Source: a virus. Taken from it: a DNA stretch of 38,282 nt. The translations under genes and the position numbers were made by a program. The stretch spans positions 1 to 38,282 of IMG/VR virus record IMGVR_UViG_3300042293_000200. One strand, given 5' to 3'. Shown here one piece after another: positions 6,382-21,843 of this stretch; positions within the stretch are counted from its first letter, which is position 1, and each line of letters opens with the position of its first letter. The notes under the pieces are model-generated. The model made no database searches and was not told the DNA's origin. It saw only the letters and a list, made by a program, of their open reading frames with translations.

Positions 6382-7701
6382 ATGGCCTCATTAGACTTTC
6401 CTTCATCGCCAACAATCGGTCAGCAATATTCCGCAAACGGTTCAACTTGGACTTGGGATGGCGTGTCTTGGCTGGCAGTAAACGGCCCTGCGTCTGGTTT
6501 TTCTGGGTTTTCTGGGTTTAGTGGATACAGCGGGTTCAGTGGATTCTCTGGTGTTGGTTCATCTGGTGTATCAGGTATTTCTGGATATAGCGGATTTTCA
6601 GGAATAGGTTTTAGTGGCTTTTCTGGGTATTCAGGAATCTCTGGTTACTCTGGTTTAGGTGTAGCTTTGCCTGTTTCTGTAGCGAACGGCGGCACTGGAG
6701 TAACGACTTCGACCGGCACTACAAACGTGGTTCTGTCGAATAGCCCTACTTTGGTTTCGCCTACGCTTGGAACCGCCACCTTCGCAGCAGGAACCGTCGC
6801 ACTACCTTCTATTACGACTTCAGATGATACGAATACCGGGGTTTACTTCCCGGCTGCGGATACCATTGCGTTCACTGAGGGTGGTGCAGAGGCGATGAGG
6901 ATTAATTCCTCTGGTATCGTTCTTATCGGAACTACGGCAGCATCAGGAACTAAACTTCTTCAAGTTAATTCTGATATTAGGATAGGAGTTATTACTGCTG
7001 GATTTGGTAATGTTGGAGGTAATTCAAATACAGCATTTGGTCAAGAAGCACTTAACGCAAACACGAACAACTCTAATTCAGCATTTGGTAAATATGCTTT
7101 ACGAGTTTCATCTACCGGAAACTCAAATACTGCTGTAGGCAATAATTCACTTTCATCAAACACAACCGGCTCTGGCAATACTGCTGTAGGCAATAATTCA
7201 CTTATAACAAATAGTGTTGGTAATTCTAATTCAGCATTTGGAGCCATCGCCCTTTATAATACGACGGGCAGTAGTAATGTCGGCCTTGGTTATTCTGCTG
7301 GCTATGCAATAACCACGGGCACTGGCAACGTAATTATTGGCGGCTACACCGGAACCGCAGCGCCAATCAGCACAACAGGAAGTAACAGCATCGTTTTCTC
7401 CGATGGCGCAGCTAACGTCCGGCAATACTATGACGGCACTAACAGTGCGTGGGTCTTTAATACGGGCGCGTCGGAACGGATGCGTATCGACTCAACGGGG
7501 AATGTGGGGATTGGAGCAACCGCCAACGCCTCCGCAATCCTAGACGCGCAAAGCACGACCAAGGGCGTGCGGATGCCTAACATGACCACGACACAGAAGA
7601 ACGCTATTGCAACCCCGGCCGCTGGTTTAATGGTTTATGACACGACCCTTGCAAAGCTCTGTGTTTACACAACCGCTTGGGAAACCATAACTTCACTCTA
7701 A
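6382..7701 (+). CDS. Tail fibre with collagen-like and YadA-head-like repeats
   Basis: A 439-residue protein. I place the start at 6382 (MASLDFPSSP), where homologues of this head domain typically begin and a GGA lies 7 bases upstream; an in-frame ATG at 6370 overlaps the previous stop. Residues 1-37 carry TWTWDGVSWLAV, and residues 39-91 are Gly-X-Ser collagen-like. A fibre module with SVANGGTGVTT follows. Residues about 211-320 repeat NSNTAFG/NTAVG/NSAFG motifs like the left-handed beta-roll of YadA-type trimeric adhesin heads. The C-terminus (RMRIDSTGNVGIG, then MTTTQKNAI and GLMVYDTTL) is a common phage-fibre ending. Likely a trimeric receptor-binding fibre working with the preceding fibre. 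Confidence 0.8.
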   Translation: MASLDFPSSPTIGQQYSANGSTWTWDGVSWLAVNGPASGFSGFSGFSGYSGFSGFSGVGSSGVSGISGYSGFSGIGFSGFSGYSGISGYSGLGVALPVSVANGGTGVTTSTGTTNVVLSNSPTLVSPTLGTATFAAGTVALPSITTSDDTNTGVYFPAADTIAFTEGGAEAMRINSSGIVLIGTTAASGTKLLQVNSDIRIGVITAGFGNVGGNSNTAFGQEALNANTNNSNSAFGKYALRVSSTGNSNTAVGNNSLSSNTTGSGNTAVGNNSLITNSVGNSNSAFGAIALYNTTGSSNVGLGYSAGYAITTGTGNVIIGGYTGTAAPISTTGSNSIVFSDGAANVRQYYDGTNSAWVFNTGASERMRIDSTGNVGIGATANASAILDAQSTTKGVRMPNMTTTQKNAIATPAAGLMVYDTTLAKLCVYTTAWETITSL

Positions 7702-11266: not shown

Positions 11267-11351
11267 TGGTAGGCGTGGCCGGAATCGAACCGGCAAGGCG
11301 TTAGCCGAGAGATTTTAAGTCTCTTGTGTTTACCAATTTCACCACACGCCC
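11267..11351 (-). tRNA. tRNA-Leu (anticodon UAA)
   Basis: Read on the minus strand it folds as a class II tRNA. The acceptor is GGGCGTG/CACGCCT (the first pair G-U), the D arm starts GTGAAATTGG, the anticodon stem AGAGA/TCTCT carries the loop CTTAAAA, and there is a long variable arm (GGC/GCC). The T arm is GCCGG/CCGGC with loop TTCGATT. CCA is encoded at the 3' end. The anticodon UAA reads UUA, a codon used heavily by the AT-rich genes here. It is the last gene of the leftward operon, 6 bases after the preceding stop, and its 3' end abuts the endolysin stop. Confidence 0.95.
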
Positions 11352-12987: not shown

Positions 12988-13193
12988 ATTGTCTTTCTTA
13001 TCAGCGAATTTAATCCGGCAGCTTGTCCACGGCGCGGGTTGTCGGCGCGGTAGTCTGCGCTGTAATCATCGCCCTCGTTTGTGTCTATCTTTTCAATCTT
13101 AATACCGCAATCTCCCAAGCCAAATTCGTGCGGCCACGGATAAGCCAAACACTTGCAATCAGATATAAATTTAATTGTCATTTCATTTGACAA
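12984..13193 (-). CDS. Small protein with Cys pair, unknown
   Basis: A 69-residue protein overlapping the HTH gene by 11 bases and the next gene by 4. It contains SDCKCLAYPWPHEFGLGDCG, three cysteines and a histidine that could bind metal, and an acidic stretch (DTNEGDDYSADYRAD). The start at 13193 lacks a ribosome site; a second ATG at 13181 is possible. No known family is recognised with confidence. Confidence 0.6.
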   Translation of the reverse strand: MSNEMTIKFISDCKCLAYPWPHEFGLGDCGIKIEKIDTNEGDDYSADYRADNPRRGQAAGLNSLIRKTI

Positions 13194-13392
13194 CGTAATA
13201 TTTTTTTACATTTACAAATTCACCCAAGCGATTTTTCACTGGAAACATATAACCGGAAATCTTCATTCCAGATTCGCGCAATTCGCAGATTCTTGAGGCA
13301 AGGCGCGTAATGCCATACATCGAAAACGCTTGCAGGGTAGTTATGCTTTTGTTGTTTTTCAGGTGATTCTTGATAATGTCGTTTTGTGTCAT
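13183..13392 (-). CDS. Helix-turn-helix DNA-binding protein (HTH_39-like)
   Basis: A 69-residue protein and the first gene of the leftward operon. The ribosome site AAGGAG lies 7 bases before the ATG. It contains LKNNKSITTLQAFSMYGITR followed by LASRICELRESGMKISG, the helix-turn-helix pattern of small phage proteins of the HTH_39 type, which resemble winged-helix modules of replication initiators or repressors. It could regulate the adjacent divergent promoters or act with the initiator-like protein two genes downstream. Which of these it does is not visible. Confidence 0.75.
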   Translation of the reverse strand: MTQNDIIKNHLKNNKSITTLQAFSMYGITRLASRICELRESGMKISGYMFPVKNRLGEFVNVKKYYVVK

Positions 13393-13420
13393 GTCATATC
13401 TCCTTTGTTAAGGTGAATAC

Positions 13421-13449
13421 ATAATAAACAGGCAATTTTAAAAAGTAAA
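13421..13449 (-). promoter_or_regulatory. Promoter of the leftward operon
   Basis: On the minus strand, TTTACT (13444-13449) and TATTAT (13421-13426) are separated by 17 bp, a good sigma-70-type promoter. RNA would start near 13414, about 22 bases before the HTH gene. It lies within a 36-bp element repeated in inverted orientation at the rightward promoter. Confidence 0.7.
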
Positions 13450-13460
13450 TAATTATTTTT
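13425..13460. repeat. Inverted 36-bp promoter element, left copy
   Basis: The reverse complement of this segment matches 13935-13970 at 32 of 36 positions. It contains the -35 box and most of the spacer of the leftward promoter. The shared sequence may hold an operator for a repressor acting on both promoters. Confidence 0.75.
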
Positions 13461-13479
13461 ATGTGTTAAAAAATGAGTT

Positions 13480-13735
13480 GTTTTGACAGGGCATAGCTTC
13501 CCCAAAGGTGATAGCCACATCACTTCTGCTAGTGTCTCAATGATTCCTGAGATACCTACAGCACCCGAAGGCAGAGATTCATCAATAAAAGGCTTGTCTC
13601 ACCTATAGACCGTTTATTTTGTGCGGTCGCTCTCTGACACGCCGCGAAGGATGTATGCCGTGTGAGCATATTCCATGTGTATTCTTGTCAGCAGCCCAGT
13701 CAGGCTCGTTGCTATCGCGGACAGTACGACCCATG
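13480..13735. other. Hairpin-rich non-coding segment
   Basis: No convincing gene is present in these 256 bases. Several short inverted repeats follow one another: GGTGAT/ATCACT near 13507-13524, GTGTCTCA/TGAGATAC near 13532-13555, GACCG/CGGTC near 13608-13628 and TATGC/GCATA near 13654-13670. GACAGG at 13485-13490 can pair with CCTGT at 13866-13870, and GGTCGCTCT at 13625-13633 with AGAGCGACC at 13859-13867, so the segment may fold together with the adjacent RNA. GC is higher than in the AT-rich promoter flanks. It could be part of a long structured RNA or a replication origin. Confidence 0.5.
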
Positions 13736-13759
13736 AAAAAACCCATACGGCTTGGGTTT
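13736..13759 (-). terminator. Intrinsic terminator of the minus-strand RNA
   Basis: On the minus strand, AAACCCA-AGCCGTA-TGGGTTT forms a 7-bp stem and the RNA ends in a run of six U. An upstream segment (13815-13833) is complementary to this stem at 17 of 19 positions and could act as an antiterminator. Confidence 0.65.
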
Positions 13760-13884
13760 CAGGTCGCGGCGGTAATAATGTGCAAGCAAAGGGGAAAGTC
13801 ACATTATTTCAACCGAAACCCAATGCGTATGGGCTTCCCTTTGCTACACGCTCCGCCAAGAGCGACCTGTCTTTTTCACAGGCG
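13736..13884 (-). ncRNA. Predicted structured non-coding RNA (about 150 nt)
   Basis: The RNA would start just after a strong minus-strand promoter and end at the terminator above. It has nested pairing: GGTCGC/GCGACC and GGCGG/CCGCC form a closing stem, and AATAATGTG/CACATTATT forms an inner hairpin with a C/U-rich loop (CTTTCCCCTTTGCT). That loop is complementary to AGCAAAGGGAAG upstream in the same RNA, so a pseudoknot is possible. A CCCATACG...TGGGTTTC segment can pair with the terminator. No open frame fits. I do not recognise a named RNA family. It may be an sRNA or a leader controlling read-through toward the leftward operon. Confidence 0.5.
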
Positions 13885-13889
13885 ACGCA

Positions 13890-13919
13890 ATTATAACCTA
13901 CTTTTTTTTATTAGCGCAA
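13890..13919 (-). promoter_or_regulatory. Promoter for the minus-strand non-coding RNA
   Basis: On the minus strand TTGCGC (13914-13919) and a perfect TATAAT (13890-13895) are separated by 18 bp. RNA would begin near 13883. No gene follows for about 490 bases, which points to an RNA product or a long leader. Confidence 0.65.
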
Positions 13920-13934
13920 GATTTAATTTTTCTC

Positions 13935-13970
13935 AAAAATAATTGTTTACTTTTAAAAATTGACTATTTA
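13935..13970. repeat. Inverted 36-bp promoter element, right copy
   Basis: Matches the reverse complement of 13425-13460 at 32 of 36 positions and contains the -35 box and spacer of the rightward promoter. Confidence 0.75.
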
Positions 13971-13974
13971 CAAT
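13946..13974 (+). promoter_or_regulatory. Promoter of the rightward early operon
   Basis: TTTACT (13946-13951) and TACAAT (13969-13974) are 17 bp apart. RNA would start near 13981, immediately before the strong ribosome site GGAGG (13982-13986) of the first gene, giving a very short leader. Confidence 0.65.
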
Positions 13975-13992
13975 AATACTTGGAGGTGACAA

Positions 13993-14214
13993 ATGACAGA
14001 TGCACAAGCAACAGCACTTGGTAGATTTTGCGGGTTAAGTACATTTTGTAAAGAAAACTCAAATTATCAATATGGCGAATATGTTATTAATAAATTGATT
14101 GAAATTTTAAACGAATACGAAAGGACAAAACATGAAACAAATAGCAACAGCATTTCTTGCGGCACAAAAGCAATTCTCCCCGGCGCTGAAAAACAGCCTG
14201 AATCCGCACTTTAA
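13993..14214 (+). CDS. First early gene, small protein of unknown function
   Basis: A 73-residue protein with the best ribosome site of the region (GGAGGTGAC, 6 bases before ATG) and directly downstream of the early promoter. The first 45 residues (GRFCGLSTFCKENSNYQYGE and a following helix) look coding. The last 28 residues overlap the ERF gene by 83 bases in another frame and appear less protein-like. The long overlap is odd; the stop may once have been earlier. No family recognised. Confidence 0.55.
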   Translation: MTDAQATALGRFCGLSTFCKENSNYQYGEYVINKLIEILNEYERTKHETNSNSISCGTKAILPGAEKQPESAL

Positions 14215-19268: not shown

Positions 19269-20026
19269 ACAAAATAGAAGTTGTTTACAAAAACATTGAT
19301 GAGTTAATCCCGTATATTAATAACAGTCGAACTCACAGCGACGCTCAAGTCGCGCAGATAGCTGCCAGTATTAAAGAGTTTGGCTGGACGAATCCTGTAT
19401 TAATGGATGGTGACAACGGAATCATTGCGGGCCATGGCAGAATTCTTGCCGCTAGGGTGCTAGGTCATACGGACATTCCAACTATAGAACTGTCTCACAT
19501 GACAGATATTAAAAAACGCGCTTATATCATTTCAGATAACAAACTTGCGCTTAATGCTGGTTGGGATGAAGAATTGTTAGGGCTTGAAATTACTGAATTA
19601 CAAGAATTTGGATTTAATATTGATTTGTTAGGCTTTGATGCTAATGAGTTAAAGGAATTAATTGGAGAAAAAAAGGAAAATATTTATTCTCAAAGCGTTG
19701 ATGTTCCTACTTATCAACCAAGTGGAGAAAAGCCATTATTAGAAGATTTATATAATGACGAAAAAGCCATGGATTTAATTACTTCTATAAAAGAAAGTAA
19801 TATAAATGAAAAAGAAAAAGAATTCTTAATGACAGCAGCTTCACGGCACATTGTTTTTAACTATGAAAAAATTGCCAATTTTTACGCACATTCATCAAAA
19901 GAATGTCAAGAACTTATGGAATGCAATGCTTTAGTTATTATTGATTTTAATAAAGCTATCGAAAATGGATTTGTTAAATTAACAGAAGAAATTAACGAAA
20001 TGTTCGATGTTGTTGATGATGAATAA
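19265..20026 (+). CDS. ParB-like domain protein with a non-methyltransferase C-terminal domain
   Basis: A 253-residue protein. Residues 1-100 are a ParB/sulfiredoxin-like domain: ELIPYINNSRTHSDAQV, then IKEFGWTNPVLMDG and GIIAGHGRILAARVLG (52-67), and KRAYIISDNKLAL. In many phages this module is fused to a DNA methyltransferase. Here the linker after ITELQEFGFNIDLLGFD leads into a different C-terminal domain of about 90 residues (SRHIVFNYEKIANFYAHSS and CNALVIIDFNKAIENGFVKL) with no SAM or DPPY motif. ParB folds bind CTP or nucleotides. It precedes a cytidylyltransferase fusion and a glycosyltransferase, so a role in a DNA or nucleotide modification pathway is plausible. Confidence 0.8.
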   Translation: MNKIEVVYKNIDELIPYINNSRTHSDAQVAQIAASIKEFGWTNPVLMDGDNGIIAGHGRILAARVLGHTDIPTIELSHMTDIKKRAYIISDNKLALNAGWDEELLGLEITELQEFGFNIDLLGFDANELKELIGEKKENIYSQSVDVPTYQPSGEKPLLEDLYNDEKAMDLITSIKESNINEKEKEFLMTAASRHIVFNYEKIANFYAHSSKECQELMECNALVIIDFNKAIENGFVKLTEEINEMFDVVDDE

Positions 20027-20972
20027 TGAATACACATTTGTTAGGCATGGTCAAACATTTTGGAATAAAAACGGAATAATGCATGGTCAGTTTGATATTC
20101 CACTTAATTACACAGGTTTCAAACAAGCAAAAAAGATAGCAACAGAATTAAAAACCGAACATTACGATTTGTGTTTATGCTCACCTTTAAAGAGAGCTAA
20201 ATCAACAGCATTTAGCATATTGCTACATCATAAGAATACAGATATTTCTTATGATTATAGATTGATGGAAATTAATAAAGGCTTACTTGAAGGAAAACAT
20301 TTAAACAGTGAAAAACTATTAAAAAGTGAAGATGATAAATTCCTAAGAAAATTTAAAATAGAAAGCAAAAAACAATTTTTTGCTAGAGTAAAAGAGTTTA
20401 TAAATGAAATAGAAAAAAAGCATAAAAACAAGAAAATTTTGATAGTTGCTCACAGTGGCACGATTAAAATGTTGTTGTTTTGCTTTAACTATCCAAAAGT
20501 TGAATTACATAAAGCCTACTACGATTTACATATTAAGAACTGTAAAGCATATAAACCAAATTTTAATAATTCAAAGGTCGAAAAAATGAAAATTGGCTTT
20601 TTCCCTATGGTCGCGGACATTTTGCATTCTGGGCATGTTTTGTCGTTAGAAGAAGCAAAAAAACATTGTGATTTTTTAATAGTGGGATTGCATTGCGCTC
20701 CTAGCTATAAAAATCCACAACAATCAATTTATGAAAGATACATGCAACTTAGAGCGGTTAAATGGGTAGATGAAGTTATTCCGTATGAAAATATAATTAA
20801 AGACAAAGATATTTTCGTTTCTTTAGACTATGACGTTTATTTTCTTGGCGAAGACCATAAAAGCGAAGAATGGGAACTTAAGAACAAAATAGAAGAATTA
20901 GCCAAGGAAATCATTTATCTTAAAAGAAAACACAACTACAGCAGTAATAAAATCAAAAATGAAAGCAAGTAA
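20019..20972 (+). CDS. Histidine phosphatase fused to cytidylyltransferase
   Basis: About 317 residues from ATG 20019 (several ATGs from 20007 are possible). The N-terminal domain is a histidine phosphatase/phosphoglycerate-mutase fold: YTFVRHGQTFWNK, LCSPLKRAKSTA and ILIVAHSGTIKML. The C-terminal domain begins near 20586 with MKIGFFPMVADILHSGHVL, the HxGH motif of TagD-type cytidylyltransferases, and ends in NYSSNKIK, a degenerate version of the usual RTEGIST motif. Such enzymes activate a phosphorylated small alcohol with CTP. An internal ATG at 20586 preceded by AAAGG could also make the second domain alone. Strong A/T bias sets it apart from the tail genes. Confidence 0.8.
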   Translation: MNNEYTFVRHGQTFWNKNGIMHGQFDIPLNYTGFKQAKKIATELKTEHYDLCLCSPLKRAKSTAFSILLHHKNTDISYDYRLMEINKGLLEGKHLNSEKLLKSEDDKFLRKFKIESKKQFFARVKEFINEIEKKHKNKKILIVAHSGTIKMLLFCFNYPKVELHKAYYDLHIKNCKAYKPNFNNSKVEKMKIGFFPMVADILHSGHVLSLEEAKKHCDFLIVGLHCAPSYKNPQQSIYERYMQLRAVKWVDEVIPYENIIKDKDIFVSLDYDVYFLGEDHKSEEWELKNKIEELAKEIIYLKRKHNYSSNKIKNESK

Positions 20973-21843
20973 AAAAATAGCTGTGTTCATTCTTTCTAAC
21001 GGAAGACCGGACAATGTTATAACTTACAAAACCTTGCGAAAACAAGGGTATACAGGCAAAATATTTCTTATTGTTGACGATGAAGACAAAACACTTAATC
21101 AATACAAAGATAAATACAAAAATGAAGTAATTGTATTTAACAAAGCGGATTACAAAAATAAGTTTGACATAATGGATAACTTTGAAGGAAACAAAGTCAT
21201 CGTATATGCAAGAAACGCTTGCTATGACATAGCTAGAAAATTAAATTTAGACTATTTCTTTGAATACGAAGATGATTACACGCAATTCCAATATAGGTTT
21301 GCGGAAAAAGATTCATTAAAAGGTACTCAAGTAACTAATCTTGATAAAATATTAGATGCAATGATTGAATGTCTAGATATAACGAAAGCAAATACTATAG
21401 CTTTTGCGCAGGGGGGTGACTTTATTGGTGGTTTAGGTGCCTTGAAAAACAATACATTTAAAAGAAAGGCAATGAATACATTTGTATTTAAAGTAAATAA
21501 AGACCCAAAAGAAGACACAATTTTTATTGGAAGAATGAATGACGATGTAAATACTTATTTAACGCAAGGAAAGATAGGAAAGCTATTTTTCCAAGTTTCA
21601 AACATTTCGTTAGTACAACTTGCAACACAATCAAACACAGGTGGAAACACAGAGGCTTATAAAGCATATGGCACCTATGTAAAGTCCTTTTATAGTGTTA
21701 TAGCCGCCCCTAGTTGTTGCAAGATTGACTTGATGGGCAGAACTGATAAAAGACTTCATCACAGAATAACTTGGAATAATGCAGTTCCAAAGATTTTGGA
21801 TGAAAAGTTTAAAAAATATAATGCCATCCATCCCAATCAATAA
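20959..21843 (+). CDS. TAGT-like glycosyltransferase
   Basis: A 294-residue protein overlapping the fusion gene by 14 bases. It begins VFILSNGRPDNVITYKTLRK and has GYTGKIFLIVDDEDKT, VYARNACYDIARKL, YFFEYEDDYTQFQYRF and GRMNDDVNTYL, a GT-A-like plan with acidic DD motifs. From memory it resembles the TET/JBP-associated glycosyltransferases (TAGT) predicted to decorate oxidised DNA bases in phages. No TET/JBP gene is present in this genome, so the acceptor may be another base, a protein or a surface glycan. Call is at family level only. Confidence 0.6.
   Translation: MKASKKIAVFILSNGRPDNVITYKTLRKQGYTGKIFLIVDDEDKTLNQYKDKYKNEVIVFNKADYKNKFDIMDNFEGNKVIVYARNACYDIARKLNLDYFFEYEDDYTQFQYRFAEKDSLKGTQVTNLDKILDAMIECLDITKANTIAFAQGGDFIGGLGALKNNTFKRKAMNTFVFKVNKDPKEDTIFIGRMNDDVNTYLTQGKIGKLFFQVSNISLVQLATQSNTGGNTEAYKAYGTYVKSFYSVIAAPSCCKIDLMGRTDKRLHHRITWNNAVPKILDEKFKKYNAIHPNQ

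Follow-up and report, generated by a model that had tools for sequence, protein, structure and literature searches.

The window analysed here is the whole of the virus contig IMGVR_UViG_3300042293_000200, 38,282 bases long, and it contains a gene-free stretch at about 13400-13990, across which the open reading frames tested gave no family match. The part singled out by an earlier note as structured and non-coding lies between a leftward gene for an HTH_39 protein and a rightward operon, starting at 13993, whose products include a phage exonuclease and an annealing protein of the Erf kind. A promoter-like match (13449-13421) sits just upstream of the HTH_39 gene. A promoter-like element occurs as two inverted copies of 36 nt (89%), at 13425-13460 and 13935-13970, on either side of the RNA gene; both point away from it, one lying before the HTH_39 gene and the other before the Erf operon, and relatives show similar copies. 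Elsewhere, the window carries a tRNA-Leu with anticodon TAA (11267-11351, minus strand; a tRNA is also found in several relatives), a NinG-like protein (PF05766, 16016-16528), and a protein fusing histidine-phosphatase and cytidylyltransferase-like domains (20007-20972), followed by a TET-associated glycosyltransferase (TAGT; 20959-21843), a neighbourhood that suggests DNA hypermodification. No PF00589 integrase was found in the record, which is possibly a fragment. The terminases of the window and of Methylophilaceae phage P19250A share 69% identity, so a methylotrophic aquatic betaproteobacterium is a reasonable guess for the host. The idea of a retron was dropped, the nearby identified genes being Erf, exonuclease and replication-type genes, with no reverse transcriptase seen. 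The features of the minus-strand RNA, a constant 5' module followed by an exchangeable 3' domain (the tail), are collected in Table 1.

Table 1. Features of the RNA locus in the window, with the observations on which each rests.
Feature	Position	Strand	Evidence
Sigma-70-type promoter: -35 TTGCGC (13919-13914), 18-nt spacer, -10 TATAAT (13895-13890)	13890-13919	minus	sequence
Constant 5' module of the RNA family, 147 nt	13736-13882	minus	R1; 53 homologues aligned
hp1, CCUGU-GAAAAAG-ACAGG, predicted RNA 5' end	13866-13882	minus	99.2% paired; two-sided changes in 5 of 5 pairs
hp2, CGCUC/GAGCG	13849-13864	minus	97.3% paired; loop can pair with 13767-13772
Pseudoknot 5' arm, AGCAAAGGG	13837-13845	minus	hypervariable, complementary to its own 3' arm
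Terminator helix, 5' half: strands X (13836-13816) and Y (13815-13812)	13812-13836	minus	
Hairpin P3 (AAUAAUGUG/CACAUUAUU), holds the pseudoknot loop	13774-13808	minus	two-sided changes in 8 of 8 model pairs; 81% paired
Pseudoknot 3' arm, CCCUUUGCU, in the P3 loop	13785-13793	minus	permutation and within-RNA tests, as for the 5' arm
Strand T (13760-13740) and U-tract (13741-13736), predicted intrinsic terminator	13736-13760	minus	pairs with X; T-run of homologues
Tail of A4 type, exchangeable structured 3' domain	13492-13735	minus	nine sequences, compensatory changes, module/tail swaps
Winged-helix HTH_39 protein, first gene downstream of the RNA	13183-13392	minus	PF14090

The RNA is carried by dozens of other phages, the homologues being viral metagenome contigs. 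A search with the Erf protein returned nine relatives, seven of them with the intergenic region, of which the distinct sequences were aligned to that of the window; a pattern for the conserved 5' hairpin yielded 25 viral stretches, and a pattern for strand X yielded more. Nineteen sequences, the window's among them, served to build a covariance model, R1; these 19 match by construction and the remaining homologues do not. Homologues score from 51 to 145 bits, at a single site per record; 53 (52 distinct) were aligned, and a few more appeared later. The window, itself a training sequence, scores 128.7 bits on the minus strand, as against 20.4 bits for its best plus-strand match. Searched against Rfam 15 at curated and permissive thresholds, the RNA stretch was without match, the tRNA being the only hit in the window; BLAST of the region or its relatives against annotated phages and plasmids gave no meaningful match, nor did R1 match phage P19250A. 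Neither R1 nor the window's tail was found in any of 399 Burkholderiales genomes, in a pass that scored few R1 candidates per genome, using a tool with which R1 does match its known carriers. A 17-mer of the tail recurs at 34 loci in bacterial genomes, and since R1 matched at none of them, these occurrences are probably due to chance. No paper describing this RNA was found in a limited search of the literature.

The fold of the module is recorded in its pattern of substitutions. Over the 39 pairs of the 53-sequence alignment, which was fitted to R1 and thus favours the R1 structure, standard pairs occupy 95.5% of cells, two-sided changes affect 29 pairs and 224 cells (52 cells in shuffles), and the covariation score is 0.405, compared with 0.166 for shuffled and at most 0.095 for slid or shifted versions. 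A MAFFT alignment of the 19 sequences, made without structure fitting, gave two-sided changes at 14 pairs and a score of 0.241 against 0.131, for a structure that had been read from the same 19 sequences. In the window, hp1, hp2, the X:T terminator helix, Y, and P3 with its compensatory changes are all present, as is the pseudoknot between the P3 loop and the upstream arm, and G-U pairs are used throughout the helices. The X:T helices are 99.7% and 99.4% paired, with two-sided changes at 9 of 11 and 2 of 6 pairs, and Y is 100% paired, with a C-G/U-A exchange. The minus-strand fold has a z-score of -2.66 over 409 nt and of -4.3 for the 147-nt module alone, in keeping with the earlier description of the stretch as gene-free and structured. 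That description had itself named a lack of compensatory changes as the outcome that would speak against a pseudoknotted, structured RNA, and such changes proved abundant. We are nearly certain that the RNA, pseudoknotted and apparently self-terminating, belongs to a real and new family found in phages.

The earlier note had proposed that the C/U-rich loop CCCTTTGCT pairs with the upstream arm, and this complementarity is indeed kept in the homologues: from phage to phage the arms change almost completely in sequence, yet within each RNA they remain complementary. For 42 representatives below 88% identity, a set in which relatedness is reduced but not removed, arms of the same RNA score 21.4 against a cross-sequence mean of 11.0, a value reached in none of 5000 permutations; the true arm also beats all other same-length stretches of its own RNA in 40 of the 42. 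By the same test, the hp2 loop and the strand that separates P3 from Y are complementary (17.8 versus 14.1, 0 of 5000 permutations). Since in window-like sequences this second long-range pairing overlaps Y, it probably exchanges there with part of that helix.

This exchange is the main real conflict among the conserved pairings, most of which are compatible within one pseudoknotted fold. The case for the attenuator-like alternatives that had been suggested for the region is weak. The complementarity of 17 out of 19 bases that had been read as competing with the terminator stem is a genuine inverted repeat (13815-13836/13739-13760) and covaries, with G-C, A-U and U-A at one position, but it is the terminator helix itself rather than an alternative to it, with some 60-85 nt between its 5' strand and the 3' strand downstream. 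A two-way switch by GGTCGCTCT is not supported: its near partner, GCGACC, is incompletely retained (at one pair, for example, in 36 of 51), and its distant partner, AGAGCGACC, sits in a local tail hairpin that has a compensatory change of its own, other tail types lacking AGAGCGACC. A conserved antiterminator was not found in the homologues, in which the candidate switch pairing is poorly kept.

At both of its ends the module is tightly framed. The minus-strand promoter recognised by the earlier note has equivalents at the same place in the homologues, where the -35 box is usually TTGAC and, in about 41 of 53, the -10 box lies exactly 7 nt ahead of the point where hp1 begins; a T-run after the terminator helix closes the module. 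Given this fixed distance and this T-run, we infer that the transcript starts at hp1, near 13882 in the window, and can end at the U-tract, at 13736. The precise promoter, together with the predicted start and terminator, makes the RNA directly testable.

Past the U-tract, roughly 200-400 nt without a called gene follow in most loci, and a downstream domain is present in nearly every one, the clearest exception being L125. These tails fall into eight sequence groups and three singletons; their G+C content is mostly 48-60%, that of their own contigs being 40-63%. In the window's group of nine sequences, two-sided changes occur at 14 of 63 predicted pairs, which lends the tail structure modest support; the mean fold-energy z-score of tails is a weak -0.85. 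Simple-type terminators between the U-tract and the next gene were found in just 3 of 51 tails, and no clear 3' end was found for an RNA of 400 nt. Modules and tails differ in their patterns of relatedness. L016 and L020 share modules of 98% identity with tails of 22%, and L007 and L034 modules of 93% with tails of 20%, whereas L001 and L003 (module 73%, tail 91%) and L020 and L150 (module 70%, tail 91%) show the reverse. Modules and tails recombine at the U-tract junction, and in both directions. Such a layout, a constant head and an exchangeable tail with swaps at the terminator, is unusual and would show how phages trade RNA modules. In L035, 24 bases identical to a tail of the L012 type (6699-6722) are located after a window-type tail, possibly as the scar of a tail exchange. 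A coding role for the tail was considered and set aside: a 47-aa frame is open in the window and in L024, other frames are open elsewhere, and the changes follow the stems. In L001 (4989-5370, minus strand), and also in L007 and L011, an open reading frame of 126-130 aa starts at a conserved ATG that ends the tail; by eye only, its product is like a PD-(D/E)XK nuclease, with no Pfam match, and it is absent in the window.

In two phage contigs, the tail is a known RNA. The tails of L018 and L028 match Betaproteobacteria-1 RNA (RF02932) at 70.5 and 67 bits, against a cut-off of 49.4, which places this RNA behind the shared phage head; it corresponds there to the downstream domain and not to the 5' module, and its covariance model found no match in the window, window tail included. 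Four of the 399 Burkholderiales genomes hold Betaproteobacteria-1 RNA over the cut-off, with no module upstream of these copies. Near three of them lie defence-type genes, namely HmaB/HmaC (L194), a PDC-S06 ATPase (L195) and a PLD-like protein (L196) that weakly resembles ZacB, a sample of five loci being too small for a statistic. We consider it a long shot that the family amounts to a portable RNA head, made up of promoter, pseudoknotted domain and intrinsic terminator, which phages set before swappable structured RNA cargo and exchange at the terminator junction. On this reading, since the bacterial copies of one such cargo, Betaproteobacteria-1 RNA, are in part neighboured by genes of the anti-phage defence type, the cargo may consist of RNA agents of phage-host conflict that controlled read-through sets free.

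The genes around the RNA resemble, by sequence, those for Erf, exonuclease, helicase and primase, in varying order. With open reading frames called by a simple script and not by a gene finder, a frame with a ribosome-binding site follows the U-tract on the same strand in 38 of 50 loci and on the other strand in 5. The first downstream products belong to many unrelated families, HNH-like, DUF5710 and winged-helix-like proteins among others. In four loci (L134, L170, L155 and L125) the neighbours called to either side are encoded on the opposite strand, although a reading of the sequence reveals short frames running in the RNA's direction behind the tails of L134 and L170.

What, then, might such an RNA do? 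It may be a riboregulator, as had been suggested. The loci present a conserved RNA fold, promoter position and U-tract, an exchangeable downstream domain and co-directional downstream genes; that the stretch is transcribed, that transcription terminates and is read through under regulation, and that control in cis is the point, are our inferences. A promoter, a compact fold closed by an intrinsic terminator and a further domain dependent on read-through are most simply read as a cis-acting conditional terminator, a leader or attenuator heading a small phage transcription unit, which we put forward tentatively, at somewhat short of an even chance. RNA polymerase would start near 13882 and produce the 147-nt domain, with hp1, hp2, P3 and the long-range pseudoknot forming and lastly the terminator helix, whereupon most polymerases would be expected to stop at the U-tract. 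A fraction would read through into the second structured domain and onward to the downstream early gene, yielding a two-domain leader RNA, and passage might be permitted only in a certain state, for instance when an antitermination factor is present or infection has reached a given stage. In favour of a conditional terminator are the covariation of the terminator helix, the other helices and the pseudoknot, along with the fixed promoter distance, the closing T-run and the frequent same-strand reading frame. The near-universal downstream domain and the two-way recombination at the U-tract fit a portable control module ahead of different cargo, and Betaproteobacteria-1 RNA, found behind the module in two phages and free of it in Burkholderiales genomes, speaks for the same reading. 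Against it stand the failure to find a conserved antiterminator, the diversity of the first downstream proteins, unusual for a regulator of a single process, the antisense called neighbours in four loci, and the promoter-like element that the window's next gene has of its own.

Unrelated downstream genes, and called neighbours that are antisense in four loci, speak for a stand-alone small RNA of 147 nt that would end at its intrinsic terminator, be stabilised by its pseudoknotted fold and act in trans on host or phage RNA or protein targets, the downstream segment being a separate and often unrelated element. This is a serious contender, nearly as likely as the conditional terminator: promoter and terminator bound exactly one folded unit, the fold is elaborate, unpaired nucleotides are conserved, and L125 carries the module without a recognisable tail family. 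A separate element is harder to reconcile with a second structured segment that nearly always abuts the U-tract, leaving no space for a promoter of its own, and with the strong co-directionality of the next gene. The constancy with which a 3' domain follows the module would be accounted for by a single large two-domain RNA of some 400 nt, akin in spirit to the ornate phage RNAs, with the U-tract serving only as linker or pause site and the variable 3' domain as the functional part; the compensatory changes in the window-group tails, the tails' own base composition and the known family in L018 and L028 agree with this, and the rarity of simple terminators in the tails implies that the U-tract is more than one such site among others. 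We nevertheless judge a single large RNA improbable, as the retention of the terminator helix and the T-run is hard to explain without a stop there, and the weak mean tail z-score and the lack of a clear distal 3' end also count against it. Finally, the intergenic position between divergent early operons in the window and the recombination breakpoints at one junction might point to an element acting at the DNA level, such as a replication origin or recombination hot spot with hairpins in single-stranded DNA. Such an element is highly unlikely in view of the strand-specific R1 scores, the G-U pairs, the fixed promoter and terminator, and the varied gene contexts.

Whichever role is correct, a well-supported structured RNA family absent from Rfam 15 is now added to phages of aquatic bacteria, and several known systems offer points of comparison. 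The put RNAs of phage HK022 are structured, form the first part of early phage transcripts and act on termination; they are much smaller, being found at two early promoters as two simple stem-loops, and the terminators that they suppress lie further downstream, whereas the present RNA occurs at a single site per record and carries its own terminator. The immunity leader of phage P4, a temperate satellite, with its CI RNA, is a structured early-operon leader with internal termination and complementary segments. The conserved pairings described here differ in forming no exchange of the P4 type, and in this record, perhaps a fragment, no PF00589 integrase was found. The earlier note had also raised large ornate RNAs such as GOLLD and ROOL, which are large, structured, phage-associated noncoding RNAs (structures in PMC12286853); that suggestion did not hold, for in a search of 13390-13995 against Rfam 15 at E values up to 10 nothing came near the cut-off. 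Unlike them, the family presented here has a module of 147 nt and a terminator in the middle of its structured stretch.
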